This document shows, one piece after another, positions 57,531 through 63,749 of a DNA stretch of 64,000 nt. Below the pieces are notes generated by a model. That model was not told where the DNA came from. It worked only from the letters and a program-made list of their open reading frames with translations, and did no database searches. A program made the position numbers and the translations under genes. Each line of letters begins with the position of its first letter. Within the stretch, counting starts at the first letter, position 1. Source of the DNA: Ralstonia sp. SET104. Its GTDB lineage: Bacteria; Pseudomonadota; Gammaproteobacteria; Burkholderiales; Burkholderiaceae. Location of the stretch: contig NZ_BHVX01000006.1 of the NCBI RefSeq assembly GCF_003851545.1, forward strand, positions 62,001 through 126,000. The letters run 5' to 3'.

Positions 57531-58637
57531 TCAGGCATTCAGGCGGCCGCGCCGACGCGAAGCCGGGGTGGCGGCGCCAGCACGTTCCAGATCGACGCTG
57601 GGCAGAAGGTGCAGTAAGCGCACGAGTTCGGACTGGCGATGCGTGCCGGTCTTGCGCAGGATGTCGCGGATATGCACCCGCACCGTGTGCAGCGAGAGGA
57701 ATTCGCGCTCGGCGATCTCCTGTAGCGTTTCGCCGGCAGCCAGCCGCGCAGCGACAATGCATTCCTTGTTGGTCAGCCCGAACAGCGATGCGAGCACGCC
57801 GGCGTCCATGACCGAGCGGGCTTCGGAGTTGCCGACCAGCACCAGCGCCAGCGGCGAAGCCCAGGCCGAGCGCATCGCATCGGAGGGTGCGAGCGGCGTC
57901 GCAATGAAGGGCACCGGACGGCCATCGCGCGCAAGATACATCCACGAACCGGCCGCGCCTTGCACACCGAGTGAGCCGGCGGCGTGTTCGATAAGGTTGC
58001 GCAGTGCTGCGTTGTGCGTGTGGTCTGCCGAATGCAGCCTGCCGCCATCGAGCGACAGGCGGTCATCTTCTGCTGTCATCGTGCGGGCCCAGGCGTTGGC
58101 GTACTTCACGCGCATGGTGCGCTCGATGACCATCACGCCGAAGTCCAGCGTATCCAGCCCGGCCATGCCGAGCGCAGCGAGTTCGTTGAGCTCCAGATTG
58201 CGCTGCTGCATGCGCGCGGCGCGCTGCAGATGCGGCAGCACGCGCTGCAGGCGGGTTTCGCGCTCCGAAGCACTGACTTCCGATGCATCGTCGTCGCGCG
58301 TGCGCAGGCGCATCGTGACGCACATGTCAGGCGTATCGATCAGGGTCATGGCCGCCGAAGGCATCTCTTCGGATACCTTGGCGCTGAACAATTGCGGGTC
58401 TTGGCAGAAGGCGTTGCAGTGGCCTGGCTGCGGGCAGTGCTGGCACCAGCCCGACGAGACGCCATGGCGCGGCGTTTCGGTGTGCTTGTCCCAGACGAAA
58501 TAGTGGGCGCTTTCGGCGCCAGCGTAGACAGAGAGCAGTGCCAGGGCGATCGGCATCTGCGCAGGCTCAAGTACCGCCTCGTAGATGGTATCGACGAGTC
58601 GATGAAACTCTGCGTCATCCGATAGACGTTGCAGCAT
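57531..58637 (-). CDS. LuxR-type (GerE helix-turn-helix) transcriptional regulator
   Basis: About 368 residues. The first ~290 residues are an undefined sensor with a Cys/His cluster (SGWCQHCPQPGHCNAFCQDP, about 68-87) that could bind a metal or haem, and a PAS-like region (LDTLDFGVMVIERTMRVKYANAWA). The C-terminal ~65 residues are a GerE DNA-binding domain (LFGLTNKECIVAARLAAGETLQEIAEREFLSLHTVRVHIRDILRKTG). There is no receiver or AHL-binding domain. The frame is open to an ATG at 58784, giving 417 residues; 58637 was preferred because the extension is low-complexity and GGGGG precedes it. It likely governs the surface genes that follow. Confidence 0.85.
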   Translation of the reverse strand: MLQRLSDDAEFHRLVDTIYEAVLEPAQMPIALALLSVYAGAESAHYFVWDKHTETPRHGVSSGWCQHCPQPGHCNAFCQDPQLFSAKVSEEMPSAAMTLIDTPDMCVTMRLRTRDDDASEVSASERETRLQRVLPHLQRAARMQQRNLELNELAALGMAGLDTLDFGVMVIERTMRVKYANAWARTMTAEDDRLSLDGGRLHSADHTHNAALRNLIEHAAGSLGVQGAAGSWMYLARDGRPVPFIATPLAPSDAMRSAWASPLALVLVGNSEARSVMDAGVLASLFGLTNKECIVAARLAAGETLQEIAEREFLSLHTVRVHIRDILRKTGTHRQSELVRLLHLLPSVDLERAGAATPASRRRGRLNA

Positions 58638-58826
58638 GATGGCCCCCGGTGCGTATTGCGACGGCTGAGGGTGCAGTCCCTTGCTGTCGGCGTGGCGCGG
58701 CGTGATGCCGCCGTCGCTGTGAGGATTGTTGTTTTTCTGCGCGACTTCAGTGGTAATCGGCAACTCTTTGGAAAAACTTAACATTCCGCTTCTGATGCTC
58801 CCAAATTCCGACGGTACTGTATCCCC

Positions 58827-58851
58827 CCCCTAAGAGGGGAGTATGGGCGAC
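58827..58851. promoter_or_regulatory. GC-rich palindrome upstream of the LuxR-type gene
   Basis: CCCCT (58827-58831), AAG, AGGGG (58835-58839) form a short palindrome; ATGGGCGAC follows at 58843-58851. The reverse complement of that 9-mer, GTCGCCCAT, also follows the palindrome at 62392-62407. It lies just upstream of the longer possible LuxR start and may be an operator. Confidence 0.4.
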
Positions 58852-58880
58852 TTTCAGCGCTGAAAAAATAAAAAATATAA

Positions 58881-58917
58881 AAAACTCCTACACATGTTCA
58901 CGATACAGGGCATGTGT
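58881..58917 (-). terminator. Intrinsic terminator of the tpsB-like gene
   Basis: On the minus strand ACACATG (58917-58911) pairs with CATGTGT (58896-58890), followed by AGGAG and a T-rich tract. The stem begins within the stop codon. Confidence 0.65.
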
Positions 58918-60602
58918 CAGTTGAACCGGTACGTATATGCTGCGTTGAATCGCAGGCTGCGTGAGCTTGAATTGATCGGTTTGTCGCCCACAGGGCGCGC
59001 GATGGCGAGGTCCAGCGTGTAGTACTTCCGATCAGAGAAGCGCACGCCCAGCGCGATCGAGCCAAGCTGGTCATGCACCAGCGTGCCCGCATTCGAATAC
59101 ACCTTGGCCGTGTCATACAAGACGTAGGGCTGCACGGTTTTCAGGTAGTTCATTGACACCGGGAAAGCGCGATTGAGTTCAACCGACGCGCCCCAGCCCC
59201 GGTCGCCCGCCACTTCACCAGCCGGATAGGCGAGGCCGAAGAAGCGTCCGCCAAAGCTGATCTGCTCAGACGAGGGCAGCACGGCGCCGCTGTACTGCGC
59301 AGCTCCGGACACCACTACGCCAAAGCCCAGCGGCAAGTCGTGTGCTTCGCTGGCGGTGATGCGCGTGCGCAGGAAGCCCAGATCGACATTGTTGTTGGCA
59401 TTGGCAGAGGCTGCTTTGCTGGCTCCCAGGCTATTGATCCCCTGGTACACGCCGAGCGATGCGCGGCGTGTCTCGCCCGGATTGACCTCCGTATAGAGGA
59501 CCTCGGCGCCGGCGACGCGCACCTTGGTATCCAGCTCCGTTTGCGCCAGTGCAACGTCCTGAGGCGTGTAGCGTTGCTTGTCGTCGTTGCCATAGACGGT
59601 GCCCGTCACCGTCAGGTTGCGCGTGTTCGAGAGCAGCACCGGGTAGCTCAATGACAACCCGAGCCGCTGCGTATCCGTCAGGTAACGCGATTGATAGCCC
59701 AGTTGCTCCAGCGGCAGATTCTCGGGCATGCCGCGATAGTGCGACCACGTGAGCTTGGCCAACAGCCCATCCGTGCCGATCGGCTGCGCCCACGTGGCGG
59801 AGTAAAACGTTTCGTGATCTCGCCCGCGCGGTTGCAATGTCGACACGCTGATCTGTTCGCCCAGCGGCGTCAGGCTGTTGAGCGTGCCCGTGATGACCGC
59901 CCGCACCCCCGGCGATCGATATTCGACGCCCGCGCCGATCGTATACGGCTGGCGCTTGACGTTGAGCACCAGTTCACTCGCGCCATCGGTGGTCGTGGGC
60001 GGTTGCACGGTCGCGGTGATCTGCACGCCCGGCTGCTGCGCGAGCACGCCGGTCACGCGCTCAAAGGTCTCGCGGCGCAAGGGCTTTTCATTCATCAGGC
60101 GTTGCGAGATTTCACGCAGGCGGCCCTCCAGCGGGCCGGGTGTGCCTTCGATGCGCATGCGCGCCACGTAGCCTTCCACCACGGTGACGCGCACCACGCC
60201 GCCTTCGAACGTTTGTGCCGGCACAAAAGCAAACGAGAGCGGGAAGCCGCGATCGGCATACAGCTTGGTCACGTCGTTCGCGGCCTGCAGCAGTTGCGCG
60301 ACGGTGATGTCGCGCCCCGCCAGCGGCGCGAAGTGCGCAGCGATCTCGGGAAACGGCAGTGTCTTCACGCCTTCGATCTGGAACTTGGTGGGCGTGAGGT
60401 GTGTGGCGAGCAGGTTTTCCAGCGCGGGGTTCGGCCGCTGCACTTCCACCTGAATCTTCTGCTGGGGCGGGCGGGAAGTATCGACGCGGGGCAGTGTGTC
60501 GATCGGGTTGCCTTGGGTCGGGCTGCTCTGGGCCCAGCTCAGTGCCGGGCCGGTCAGTGCTACGCCTGTGGCCAGGGCCAACCGCATGGTGGTGGTCCGC
60601 AC
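58917..60602 (-). CDS. ShlB/FhaC/HecB-type outer-membrane transporter (TpsB)
   Basis: A 561-residue two-partner-secretion transporter. A signal peptide ends near GPALSWAQ. A POTRA_2 domain follows (about 75-160, FQIEGVKTLPFPEIAAHFAPLAGRDITVAQLLQAANDVTKLYADRGFPLSFAF), then a ShlB-type beta-barrel to the C-terminal YRFN. The barrel has the loop-6 type VRGY/FGGRFFG motif as SFGGRFFGLAYPAGEVAGDRG. GGAGG precedes the GTG at 60602. No gene with a TPS/filamentous haemagglutinin N-terminal domain is near; the next genes encode glycine-rich lipoproteins. The cargo is therefore unknown. Confidence 0.88.
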   Translation of the reverse strand: MRTTTMRLALATGVALTGPALSWAQSSPTQGNPIDTLPRVDTSRPPQQKIQVEVQRPNPALENLLATHLTPTKFQIEGVKTLPFPEIAAHFAPLAGRDITVAQLLQAANDVTKLYADRGFPLSFAFVPAQTFEGGVVRVTVVEGYVARMRIEGTPGPLEGRLREISQRLMNEKPLRRETFERVTGVLAQQPGVQITATVQPPTTTDGASELVLNVKRQPYTIGAGVEYRSPGVRAVITGTLNSLTPLGEQISVSTLQPRGRDHETFYSATWAQPIGTDGLLAKLTWSHYRGMPENLPLEQLGYQSRYLTDTQRLGLSLSYPVLLSNTRNLTVTGTVYGNDDKQRYTPQDVALAQTELDTKVRVAGAEVLYTEVNPGETRRASLGVYQGINSLGASKAASANANNNVDLGFLRTRITASEAHDLPLGFGVVVSGAAQYSGAVLPSSEQISFGGRFFGLAYPAGEVAGDRGWGASVELNRAFPVSMNYLKTVQPYVLYDTAKVYSNAGTLVHDQLGSIALGVRFSDRKYYTLDLAIARPVGDKPINSSSRSLRFNAAYTYRFN

Positions 60603-60781
60603 GCGTGTCTCCTCCGTGGTTTTCGTTTGTGGTGCCGCGAGGCCGTGCAGCCGCGCGTTGCGTCAAACGATAACCGCGAGACATGGTGCTTTACAACAAG
60701 ACACATAGAGGGAACGTTCACGCGACGCAACGGCTCAGGTAGATACCGATGGTGCCTAGCCGCGTGCCAGCAAGCCCAATG

Positions 60782-60806
60782 GTGATGCCGCATTGCGCGG
60801 CATCAC
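60782..60806. repeat. Perfect 10-bp stem-loop
   Basis: GTGATGCCGC (60782-60791) and GCGGCATCAC (60797-60806) with loop ATTGC. It lies after the minus-strand glycine-rich gene and is likely its terminator or a transcript-stabilising hairpin, although no T-run follows. Confidence 0.5.
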
Positions 60807-60871
60807 TGCGTTTGAAACGCGACATCGGCGCACGGGCGTGATAGCCGGCCCGCCGATGCGTGGATCGCCAA

Positions 60872-62194
60872 TCAGTGGTGCGCGCCGCTCAGTGCGCCGC
60901 CCACCGTGCCCAGCAGGCCGCCCACCGCGCCCGTGACTGGCGACAGTGGTGTTGCCCCGCCTGCCGAGGTCAGGCCGGTACCCACCCTGGTGACTACGCC
61001 GCCAACCGGAGCCGTGATCGCGCTGACCGGGCCCAGCGGGTTGCTGGTGCCGCCGGTTGCAGCGCCCAGGCTGCCGGGTGCGCCGGTGATTGGGGCGAGC
61101 GGGTTGCTGGCGCCCGTCGCGCCACCCAGGCTGCCCAGGGCACCGGTGAGCGCGCCCAACGGACTGCCGCCCGCGCCGCCGCTCAACCCGCCGAGTGCGC
61201 CGGTGATCGGTGCCAGCGGATTACCCGCCGCTGCCGTCGGCGAATACGCCACGCCTCCCAGCGCGGCAACGGTGTTGCCCGTGGCTGTCACCACACCGCC
61301 CAACCCGCTGACAACCGGAACATTGGCCGCAGTGAGCGTATTGCCGCCGTTGGCCACGGCACCGCCAATCGTGCCCAGCAGCGTGTTAGCCGGCGAACCC
61401 AGGCCTGAGGCTGCGCCCAGCGTTTGCGTGGCGCTGGTGAGTTGCGAAGTCAGCGGCACGATGGCCGTGCTCAGTTGCTGCGTGAGTTGTTCCACCGGAC
61501 CGGTCGACAGGGCCGAGCCCAACGTGCCGCCGCCGTTGGCTACGGCTTGACCGGCTTGCGTGACCGCGCCTGCCAGCGGTGTCGTCACTGGAGCCAGCGG
61601 CGCCAGTGGGCCGGTGCCCAGGTTGTTGACCAGCGTGCCAGTGCTCGTGACCGTGTTACCGGCGCCCGTCACTACGTTACCGAGGCTGGCGACCGTGGTG
61701 CCAACCGGATTGCCGTTGCGGCCGATGCTGCCCAACCCGTCCTGCACGCCCGTGCCCAGCGCCGAAACCGTCGCGCCAGCGTTTCCAACCATACCGCCGA
61801 GGCCGCTTTGTGCACCACTCAACTGCGAGGGCAGCGGCGCGGTGGCGATGGTCTTGCCGAGGCCGCTCACAGTCGAACCAGCCGTTGTGACAATGCCGCC
61901 TGCGTTGTTAAGAACAGCGCCAGCCGGCGTCAGCGGCGCTGGTGCCGGAGCCGGGCTGGGAGACGGGGAGGGCGATGGCGACGGCGACGGGGAGGGCGAT
62001 GGGGAAGGTGCGGGCGAAGGCGTCGGCGTTGAACCGCTGCCGTTGTTAGTCGCGCCGCCACCGTTGCTGGTCGACCCACCGCCGTTTGAACCGCCCAACG
62101 AGCCGCCGAGATCGCCGGAGCCTGAGCTTGCGCAACCGCCCAATACCAGCAGGCTTGCCATGGTGGCGGCCAGGCACTTGATGTTCTTATTCAT
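60872..62194 (-). CDS. Glycine-rich 'collagen-like' repeat lipoprotein A
   Basis: A 440-residue surface lipoprotein. The lipobox is LLVLGGCAS (Ala at +2, outer-membrane type). A Gly/Ser/Asn-rich start and a Ser-Pro tract, (SP)n ending in APAPAP (about residues 55-85), act as a stalk. About 130-330 is a domain shared with lipoprotein B (GMVGNAGATVSALGTGVQDGLG, NPVGTTVASLGNVV, QLTQQLSTAIVPLTSQLTSATQT). The C-terminal ~120 residues repeat NPLAPITGALG-type units. Such proteins are often annotated as collagen-like but lack regular Gly-X-Y. GGGAG precedes the ATG. The function is unknown. Confidence 0.82.
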   Translation of the reverse strand: MNKNIKCLAATMASLLVLGGCASSGSGDLGGSLGGSNGGGSTSNGGGATNNGSGSTPTPSPAPSPSPSPSPSPSPSPSPSPAPAPAPLTPAGAVLNNAGGIVTTAGSTVSGLGKTIATAPLPSQLSGAQSGLGGMVGNAGATVSALGTGVQDGLGSIGRNGNPVGTTVASLGNVVTGAGNTVTSTGTLVNNLGTGPLAPLAPVTTPLAGAVTQAGQAVANGGGTLGSALSTGPVEQLTQQLSTAIVPLTSQLTSATQTLGAASGLGSPANTLLGTIGGAVANGGNTLTAANVPVVSGLGGVVTATGNTVAALGGVAYSPTAAAGNPLAPITGALGGLSGGAGGSPLGALTGALGSLGGATGASNPLAPITGAPGSLGAATGGTSNPLGPVSAITAPVGGVVTRVGTGLTSAGGATPLSPVTGAVGGLLGTVGGALSGAHH

Positions 62195-62681
62195 GATGGA
62201 TCTCCCGTTTTAAAAGTCCGCTTTAGTAAGCTGGAAAATGTCCCACTGTCGATGTGGGTGGCCGGACTCTGCAAACGGTGTGCCATGCCGCCATCATTAC
62301 GCAATCCGTAATGAGATATCTTGATTTGCGTGGTTTGGTCCTTAGAAAATGGATGGATTGTGAAAATTAACCAGAATAAGGGATTTACTCACCCTACTTG
62401 AGTAGGGGTCGCCCATCCGTTTGCGGGGTTATGTTGGTGATGAATATGTTCCGTGTCACGTTACGTTGTAACGTCCGGAACGCGAACTTCGCAGGGGTAA
62501 CGCGCTATCTTTGTATTGGGGTAACACCTGAGGCGTGGCCCGCAGAGTCAATATCTACGCTGTCCCTTGAAAACCGAGCACTGTTTCTAACGCGCTGGCA
62601 TGCCATTTGCAAAATGTGGCCCGCAGTCCGCAGTACCGAGCTCAGACATCAAGACACATCATTCCAAGAAGGGGACGGACC
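62195..62681. promoter_or_regulatory. Divergent AT-rich region with palindromes between the two lipoprotein genes
   Basis: 487 bp without a gene. Three separate palindromes are visible: TCATTACG/CGTAATGA (62294-62301, 62307-62314), CCCTACT-TG-AGTAGGG (62392-62407) and ACGTTAC-GTT-GTAACGT (62458-62474). A plus-strand frame at 62398-62685 crosses the region but has no ribosome site. The palindromes suggest control of both lipoprotein genes by one or more dimeric regulators; the LuxR-type protein encoded at 57531 is the closest candidate. Confidence 0.6.
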
Positions 62682-63749
62682 ATGACTCACATTCGACACT
62701 CCATGCGCGTTGCACCATTGGCCTGCGCTGTTGCCGCGCTCATGCTGGCGGCTTGTTCTTCGGGAGGCTCGGGCTCGGGAAGCTCGCCTACCGCGAATCC
62801 GAACGATGTGACGGGCGTGACGCCCGTTGGCAAGGTGGCCAACGGCGGCGGCAACACGGTGGTCGCTACGGGGCAGGCGGTCAGCAGCCTGGGTGCGACG
62901 CTGCAGAACGCCAATATTCCGGGCTTGTCTGACCAGTCCAAGGCCGGCCTTGGCGGCACGGTTGGCAATGCAGGCAAGGCCGTCAGCGACCTCGGCCTGG
63001 GTGTGCAGACCGGTCTTGGCAAGATGGGCCAGAACCCGAACCCGGTCGGTACGACGGTGGCCAGCACCGGCAACGTGGTGACCGATGTTGGTCAGGCTAC
63101 GGTGAGCGCCGGTTCGCTCGTGCAAGGTCTGGGCCAAGGTTCGGGCGCACCGCTTGCGCCGGTCACCCAGCCGGTCGGCGGTGGCGTGCAGCAGGTCGGC
63201 CAGGCAGTGATTGGTGGCGGCACGATGCTGGGAAGCGCGCTGTCTTCGGGCGCGGTTCAGCAGGTGACGCAGCAACTCAGCACGGCCATCGTGCCGGTCA
63301 CGACGCAACTGACCAGTGCCACGCAAACCGGCGGCGACGCAACCGGCCTGGGTGGCCCATTTAATTCGTTGCTGGGCACCGTTGGCGGTGGCGTGGCTGG
63401 CGCCGGCAACACCATCACCGGGACAGGTGTGCCGGTGGTGTCGAACCTGGGGCCCGTGGTCACCTCCGTCGGGGCGACTGTGGCGGCGATCGGCGGTGTT
63501 GCAACGGCTGGCGGCGCATCGGGCAGCAACCCCCTCAGCGGCCTGCCGGGCGGCGTTGGCGGTAGCGGTGGCAACCCGCTGGCGCCCCTGACCGGTCTCC
63601 TGGGCGGCGCGGCAGGCAGTTCCAACCCGCTGGCGCCCGTCACCGGCCTGCTGGGCGGCGCGACCGGCGCGGCCGGCGGCACATCAGGCAGCAGCCCTCT
63701 GGCTCCTGTCACCAACTTGCTGGGCGGCGTTGGCAGCCTGGCGCACTGA
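62682..63749 (+). CDS. Glycine-rich 'collagen-like' repeat lipoprotein B
   Basis: A 355-residue paralogue of lipoprotein A on the opposite strand. The signal ends with the lipobox AALMLAACS (Ser at +2, outer-membrane type). The shared domain covers about residues 85-265 (GGTVGNAGKAVSDLGLGVQTGLG, NPVGTTVASTGNVV, QVTQQLSTAIVPVTTQLTSATQT). The C-terminal ~85 residues hold NPLAPLTGLLGG-type repeats. It lacks the Ser-Pro stalk of A. AAGGGGAC precedes the ATG at 62682. A terminator follows at 63774-63814. The function is unknown; surface exposure, possibly with the nearby TpsB-like transporter, is inference. Confidence 0.82.
   Translation: MTHIRHSMRVAPLACAVAALMLAACSSGGSGSGSSPTANPNDVTGVTPVGKVANGGGNTVVATGQAVSSLGATLQNANIPGLSDQSKAGLGGTVGNAGKAVSDLGLGVQTGLGKMGQNPNPVGTTVASTGNVVTDVGQATVSAGSLVQGLGQGSGAPLAPVTQPVGGGVQQVGQAVIGGGTMLGSALSSGAVQQVTQQLSTAIVPVTTQLTSATQTGGDATGLGGPFNSLLGTVGGGVAGAGNTITGTGVPVVSNLGPVVTSVGATVAAIGGVATAGGASGSNPLSGLPGGVGGSGGNPLAPLTGLLGGAAGSSNPLAPVTGLLGGATGAAGGTSGSSPLAPVTNLLGGVGSLAH

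Follow-up and report, generated by a model that had tools for sequence, protein, structure and literature searches.

A TpsB-type transporter gene paired with Collagen_mid lipoprotein genes and linked to Tad/Flp pilus clusters in Burkholderiales

Introduction

In Slam-dependent (type XI) secretion, an outer-membrane barrel brings lipoproteins to the bacterial surface. In two-partner secretion (type Vb), TpsB proteins of the outer membrane are translocases for characteristically haemagglutinin-like partners, and the FhaC and Hmw1B types are the only TpsB subfamilies given in the available text of PMC4104836; certain TpsBs have several TpsA substrates or look promiscuous (PMC5422565). Here we describe a locus in Ralstonia sp. 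SET104 at which a transporter of the TpsB/FhaC fold, referred to as TpsB*, is accompanied by lipoproteins carrying the Pfam domain Collagen_mid (Collagen_mid lipoproteins, CLPs). It lies in a stretch of 64,000 nucleotides (contig positions 62001-126000 of a genome of 4.8 Mb), hereafter the window. The sources cited were available in part, and what is said of them refers to that text.

The lipoproteins themselves and their position beside flp genes are already known in Burkholderia. Collagen_mid lipoproteins of the B. cepacia complex (Bcc) have been presented, with AlphaFold models, as a new adhesin class that differs from the known collagen-like proteins; BCAL1523, BCAL1524, BCAL1522 and BCAL1520 may form one operon beside the flp cluster, and BCAL1522 is given as an outer-membrane protein related to heme utilisation (PMC10224339). 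One study places BCAL1524-1520 within the flp pilus cluster and reports that quorum-sensing mutations affect several genes in the putative operons BCAL1524-1520 and BCAL1525-1537 (PMC2753556). BCAL1520, BCAL1523 and BCAL1524 are induced along with flp genes upon contact with host-derived vesicles (PMC7970998), and BCAL1524 was detected in outer-membrane vesicles and has a part in auto-aggregation and in Galleria infection (PMC10303873).

The locus BCAL1522-1524 looks like the same type as the one described here, and its lipoproteins BCAL1523 and BCAL1524 have in common with those of the window the Pfam domain, the lipoprotein nature and the low-complexity repeats; in what was available of PMC10224339, no export role was found proposed for BCAL1522. 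Among the matches listed, the open-licence literature held no work linking a TpsB to the export of Collagen_mid proteins. As far as the literature was searched, the systematic link to TpsB, the arginine loss in TpsB*, the basic C-terminal tip of the CLPs and the breadth of the Tad link described below are apparently new.

TpsB* and two CLP genes in the window

A first-pass annotation, made from the letters of the window, had reported a LuxR-type regulator, a TpsB and two lipoproteins. All four are present as intact open reading frames (ORFs) with Pfam domains. The features of the transporter and the lipoproteins are as follows.

58917..60602, minus strand: TpsB*, TpsB/FhaC-fold outer-membrane transporter without TpsA (POTRA_2 2.1e-19, ShlB 1.9e-12)
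59214..59255, minus strand: L6-loop motif FGGRFFGLAYPAGE of TpsB*, with Leu in place of the VRGY/F Arg (FhaC VRGY aligned to algY)
60872..62194, minus strand: ClpA, Collagen_mid lipoprotein, upstream of and co-oriented with TpsB*, an order that is the same in relatives (PF15984 E 3.1e-65; lipobox LGGC)
61250..61831, minus strand: Collagen_mid domain of ClpA, predicted Gly-rich helices (Pfam, AlphaFold2)
60875..60880, minus strand: basic C-terminal tip of ClpA, His-His (C-terminal residue counts across CLPs)
62682..63749, plus strand: ClpB, second Collagen_mid lipoprotein, divergent, pointing towards the Tad/Flp cluster (PF15984 E 1.3e-60; lipobox LAAC)
62916..63506, plus strand: Collagen_mid domain of ClpB (Pfam)
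63741..63746, plus strand: C-terminal tip of ClpB, Ala-His (C-terminal residue counts across CLPs)

The domain that the annotation had seen as shared by two paralogous lipoproteins is thus Collagen_mid, and the NPLAP-type repeats are there as well, five and three by pattern count. Both lipoproteins are real; the start given for the plus-strand gene (TTG 62607) had to be corrected, most likely to ATG 62682, from which ClpB has 355 amino acids (aa). The lipoproteins are not new, being Collagen_mid proteins, the adhesin class discussed in PMC10224339. The host genome contains five Collagen_mid stretches, two in the window, one alone on contig C1 and two together on C27.

TpsB* and CLP genes are inherited together

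Within the genus, TpsB* and CLPs are found in 16/16 genomes, TpsB* being in two pieces on two contigs in one of them (G004). A survey of 120 genomes of the family, with a threshold of E 1e-30 for TpsB*, detected CLPs in 58 and TpsB* in 59; the two sets are identical save for one genome, G123, and none of the 120 has a CLP without TpsB*, although the surveyed genomes do not count as independent observations. In six genera that otherwise hold the pair, at least 13 genomes lack both genes. In 50 of the 59 genomes, TpsB* is immediately preceded by a CLP gene in the same orientation, as read from survey coordinates plus the fetched loci of G030 and G065. The usual ratio is one TpsB* to between one and five CLPs, and two TpsB* loci are present in G066 and G073.

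The remaining nine genomes belong to Pandoraea, and in them the sequence fetched around TpsB*, 7 to 10 kb per side, shows no CLP; eight of the nine hold CLPs elsewhere. The CLP-less genome, G123 (Pandoraea, L118/L033), has a TpsB* interrupted by an in-frame TAA stop. The sole RcpC match of G123 scores 114.9 bits, against about 85-86 bits for the matches listed on the CLP contigs of three genomes of the same genus (G045, G074 and G116); since this score is unlike those of its CLP-keeping relatives, the CLP-type Tad cluster may be gone too.

A set of 80 named loci shows the same arrangement: 61 have a CLP gene immediately before TpsB* in the same orientation, and the exceptions are 16 loci of Pandoraea type, two loci at contig ends and that of Herbaspirillum autotrophicum. 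Across 369 genomes of the class, PF15984 matched over its cut-off in three and at only 7e-4 in two more, and the TpsB* model reached 1e-60 in four. In two loci from outside Burkholderiales (L140 and L141), a CLP gene and then TpsB* are adjacent on one strand; the locus of a third non-Burkholderiales TpsB* (L139) is cut by a contig end.

Most of this co-occurrence comes from one physically linked island, so that gain and loss of the whole island explains part of it. The unlinked genes of Pandoraea, the interrupted gene of G123 and the two distant pairs are not explained by linkage. In the co-occurrence check proposed with the first-pass annotation, TpsB and the lipoproteins show near-identical genome sets and a kept gene order. 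Together with the unlinked and distant cases, this lends strong support to the central proposal of the annotation, in which the repeat lipoproteins, and not a TpsA, go with the TpsB barrel.

A Tad/Flp pilus cluster adjoins the pair

The annotation had described the gene set as separated from unrelated genes, which is misleading. The window ends 251 bases past ClpB, and a Flp/Tad cluster starts just outside it, about 0.6 kb downstream of ClpB on the same strand (L052:12314-18653, window position 64313 on). Its adjacent genes for a Flp pilin (PF04964, 1e-16), a prepilin peptidase, TadE, RcpC/CpaB (9e-29), a secretin (2e-45) and the TadA ATPase (7e-63) identify it as a Tad/Flp cluster; TadZ matches below its curated cut-off. 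A second RcpC match in the host genome is on contig C5.

Of the 80 named loci, 59 have two or more Tad genes around TpsB*, and the 21 without them comprise 16 Pandoraea-type TpsB loci and five short contigs. In Pandoraea, the two fetched CLP loci (L030 and L058) adjoin Tad genes, and TpsB* is found elsewhere, beside other genes. All 59 TpsB*-positive genomes of the family carry RcpC, and none of the 45 RcpC-negative genomes holds TpsB* or CLP. To our knowledge, TpsB and Collagen_mid lipoproteins are not defining parts of Tad systems; here the pair lies at the edge of the cluster, and 16 of the 75 RcpC-positive genomes have neither gene, so Tad pili as such need neither. Together with the joint inheritance, these observations establish a conserved TpsB*-CLP module that is linked to Tad pili in Burkholderiales.

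No evident TpsA for TpsB*

The host genome gave three POTRA_2 matches and a single TPS domain. This domain is on contig C3, where another POTRA_2 protein follows some 11 kb later. The window TpsB* is thus left with no evident TpsA of its own, which bears out the annotators' remark that no TpsA was recognisable. TPS domains (PF05860) occur in 86 of the 120 family genomes. Among the TpsB*-positive ones, 49/59 have at least one and 10/59 have none, at the sensitivity of PF05860; conversely, 37 genomes have TPS domains but no TpsB*. A tblastn search with the host TPS domain, a single query and not a sensitive one, found none in the fetched TpsB* loci and did find the canonical controls L150 and L151. 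A true TpsA encoded elsewhere, which would have undone the original idea, is rejected as a general partner on the strength of the ten genomes that lack a PF05860 match.

Compared with the type Vb systems of FhaC and CdiB, the TpsB* locus has no detected TpsA or TPS domain, and the proteins paired with the transporter are small lipoproteins predicted to contain a helical domain. Because the TpsA feature was sought and not found, at the loci and in those ten genomes, the TpsB*-CLP system should not be filed as a two-partner system, though it may still work like one.

TpsB* forms a clade that has lost the L6 arginine

Two POTRA domains and a 16-strand barrel, as in the TpsB family, are predicted for TpsB* from its Pfam matches (POTRA_2, ShlB) and its AlphaFold2 model, whose best structure matches are CdiB and FhaC. 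Residues 1-28 and 42-60 of the model, in the region of the N-terminal H1 plug helix, have a predicted local distance difference test (pLDDT) score under 50. The job proposed below for TpsB* is that of Slam, namely surface delivery of lipoproteins by an outer-membrane barrel. The window TpsB* has POTRA_2 and ShlB and no other Pfam match above cut-off; Slam-type domains gave no Pfam match up to E 1, and no further search was made for them.

The VRGY/F motif of the L6 loop has been reported as essential in TpsB transporters (PMC5422565). In contrast to FhaC and CdiB, TpsB* of Burkholderiales has lost its arginine, which is Leu in the window and is missing from 107 of 108 distinct sequences (116 distinct matches minus three gapped ones, the two canonical TpsBs at loci L075 and L078, and the three non-Burkholderiales sequences L139-L141). 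The same residue is present in 15/15 other POTRA_2-type barrels of the genus, one of which (L057), at 768 aa, is larger than the rest and is probably BamA. Outside Burkholderiales, L139 has Leu, and the two CLP-linked gammaproteobacterial sequences L140 and L141 have Arg; arginine loss as a condition for pairing with CLPs is thereby ruled out. The Asp of the F/GxDxG strand motif is retained in 111 of 113 aligned sequences (the three gammaproteobacterial and two canonical ones included), and the final Gly of that motif is mostly Ala or Ser in TpsB*.

In a tree of 14 controls (L057 being omitted) and a chosen sample of 36 TpsB* sequences, TpsB* forms one clade apart from the canonical TpsBs of the genus, with a Shimodaira-Hasegawa-like approximate likelihood ratio test (SH-aLRT) support of 97-98; this was a quick tree, for which the program warned of long branches that meet. 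The loci L075 and L078, both from Cupriavidus, each carry a second, canonical TpsB with VRGF near TpsB*.

CLPs are predicted helical lipoproteins with a basic C terminus

By eye, the lipoboxes of ClpA (LGGC-AS) and ClpB (LAAC-SS) have no Asp at position +2, as in predicted outer-membrane lipoproteins. Most CLPs of relatives also have a lipobox under a loose pattern, of which some sites look false; 7 of 104 listed frames have none, several of these being cut or of unclear start. Both window proteins have the Collagen_mid domain of bacterial collagen-like proteins, but not the long Gly-X-Y repeats that can form a triple helix, the longest in-phase Gly-X-Y run being four in each. The AlphaFold2 model of ClpA, run with 32 sequences, predicts seven helices (residues 90-118, 123-152, 163-192, 198-231, 234-263, 266-289 and 293-315), with block pLDDT values of 79-91 for residues 81-230, 54-67 for 231-270 and 76-80 for 271-310 and tails that are mostly disorder. 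The short Gly-X-Y runs and predicted helices rule out a true collagen. As models of the Bcc proteins were already shown in PMC10224339, the helical prediction may not be new. A fold search with the CLP model returned nothing at E 0.001 or better (best 0.31), although a missing match is not proof of a new fold.

The last residue is K, R or H in 140 of 152 distinct CLP frames, a count that mixes related sequences, against a background of 204/628 that takes the eight longest frames per locus and includes CLP, TpsB and antisense frames. A cleaner comparison, over 33 representative loci, gives a basic last residue in 22/24 CLP ORFs and 68/350 other ORFs. Three CLPs of the window genome that are encoded far from TpsB* (L050 and L051) also have the basic tip. 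Downstream of TpsB* in the distant gammaproteobacterium of L140 is a repeat protein (L140:6442-7419) with an apparent signal peptide, no lipobox and no Pfam match; its repeats resemble those of the adjoining CLP.

Function of the module and alternative explanations

We consider export by TpsB* the best explanation of the module, and give a probability of about 0.6 to the reading that TpsB* is a branch of TpsBs exporting Tad-associated CLPs to the surface, where they would act in adhesion or aggregation with the Flp/Tad pilus. CLPs would be made with a lipobox signal peptide and then lipidated, TpsB* would carry their Gly-rich helical mid domain and repeat tail across or along the outer membrane, and their basic C-terminal tip could serve as a recognition or retention signal. 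Once on the surface, the CLPs may contribute to adhesion and aggregation jointly with the neighbouring pilus. This suggests a secretion route, which may be new, for small adhesin-like lipoproteins encoded beside a pilus cluster in Ralstonia and many relatives, through a member of a family otherwise known for the export of huge filamentous proteins.

A further-reaching version is tentative and in our view rather doubtful. TpsB* would found a lipoprotein-exporting branch with predicted alpha-helical, Gly-rich cargo in place of beta-helical TpsAs, several CLPs served in trans and a changed gate. In this gate the barrel Asp is kept, its partner in other barrels, the L6 Arg, is gone, and the basic tip of the substrate would act as the key that replaces the Arg and opens or seats the channel. 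The CLPs of L140 and L141 have no basic tip and their TpsB* keeps the Arg, as the changed gate predicts, in two cases only.

Several observations weigh against export by TpsB*, beside the island linkage already mentioned. BCAL1522, the counterpart of TpsB*, is not among the induced genes named in the available text of PMC7970998. Herbaspirillum autotrophicum (L122) has TpsB* beside Tad genes with no CLP at the locus, G145 has TpsB* with no PF15984 match on a contig that ends just upstream, and G079 retains its CLPs with a TpsB* that is broken into two frames. The loss of the L6 Arg could signal a barrel without translocation ability. Finally, both gammaproteobacterial pairs lack a basic tip, and their fetched flanks show no Tad genes, so that pairing requires neither feature.

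Some of these points would suit an accessory role in the Tad island, in which TpsB* assembles an outer-membrane part of the pilus, for example the secretin, and the CLPs reach the surface independently. The Tad genes around most named TpsB* loci, the confinement of both genes to RcpC-positive genomes in the family survey, the CLP-less locus of L122 and the loss of an arginine typical of translocating TpsBs agree with it. We nevertheless hold it unlikely, because 16 of 75 RcpC-positive genomes do without either gene, TpsB* of Pandoraea lies away from Tad genes while the two fetched CLP loci lie beside them, and the gammaproteobacterial pairs have none within their fetched flanks. Mere co-regulation or hitch-hiking, with CLP and TpsB* sharing a surface island without working together, draws on the linkage in 50/59 genomes and on the response of several genes of the putative Burkholderia operons to quorum-sensing mutations (PMC2753556); it fits poorly with the joint persistence of unlinked genes in Pandoraea, the in-frame stop in the one CLP-less genome and the same pairing outside Burkholderiales, and appears improbable.

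We see very little chance that TpsB* is a degenerate or repurposed barrel that serves the CLPs as surface receptor or anchor and not as a channel: the Arg lost in 107/108 sequences beside the Asp of the partner strand kept in 111/113 would fit, but TpsB* retains its POTRAs, a 16-strand barrel and many invariant positions, and two distant pairs keep the Arg. Least credible is a conventional two-partner system with its TpsA encoded elsewhere. Although some TpsBs serve more than one TpsA or look promiscuous (PMC5422565) and 49/59 TpsB*-positive genomes do have a TPS domain, the ten genomes without one, the POTRA_2 protein about 11 kb downstream of the only host domain and the 37 genomes with TPS domains and no TpsB* speak against it.

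If TpsB* does export CLPs, large beta-helical exoproteins are not the only cargo of the two-partner family, and Gram-negative bacteria possess a further dedicated pathway by which lipoproteins reach the surface, one that is tied to Tad pili in many soil bacteria and opportunists. A function would then be available for the outer-membrane protein encoded beside adhesin and vaccine candidates such as BCAL1524. TpsB* is also a natural test of the role of the L6 Arg in Omp85 proteins.

Neighbouring genes and candidate regulatory elements

Downstream of TpsB*, two gene families, F6 (15/33 representative loci) and F7 (14/33), hold a fixed place between TpsB* and further conserved genes. From their likeness to the positions of BCAL1520 and BCAL1519, F6 may be a small, apparently exported protein and F7 a transposase-like gene. 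The window has two further features, one beside the transporter gene and one between the lipoprotein genes.

57531..58784, minus strand: LuxR/NarL-type regulator with a Cys-rich stretch (GerE helix-turn-helix, PF00196, E 1.5e-10)
62459..62473, no strand: palindrome CGTTAC-N3-GTAACG, candidate operator, between the divergent lipoprotein genes (conservation in Ralstonia)

The regulator had been counted as a member of the system. At E 1e-40 and within the fetched flanks, 11 of the 12 named loci of Ralstonia type have a homologue next to the pair, and none of the 68 others does; one of the eleven is in two pieces (L065), and the twelfth locus is a contig ending inside TpsB*. A core part is thus ruled out, as the gene accompanies the pair only in Ralstonia among the loci compared, and it is probably a local regulator. 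Pfam searches up to E 1 with the protein gave GerE over its cut-off and listed no autoinducer-binding domain. The Cys-rich stretch noted earlier is indeed present. Its motif, CxxCPQxGxCxxxC, may be a metal or redox site; of 12 aligned sequences (the window and Ralstonia-type loci) 11 retain it, that of L065 being unreadable in this frame.

The palindromes seen between the lipoprotein genes also hold up. Three short ones with perfect arms are present, and CGTTAC-N3-GTAACG is exact in 9 of 10 aligned Ralstonia sequences, the window included. A form with two mismatches sits before the Flp pilin gene; forms with up to two mismatches are expected by chance about once per window. The palindrome may be an operator of the LuxR-type or of another regulator.

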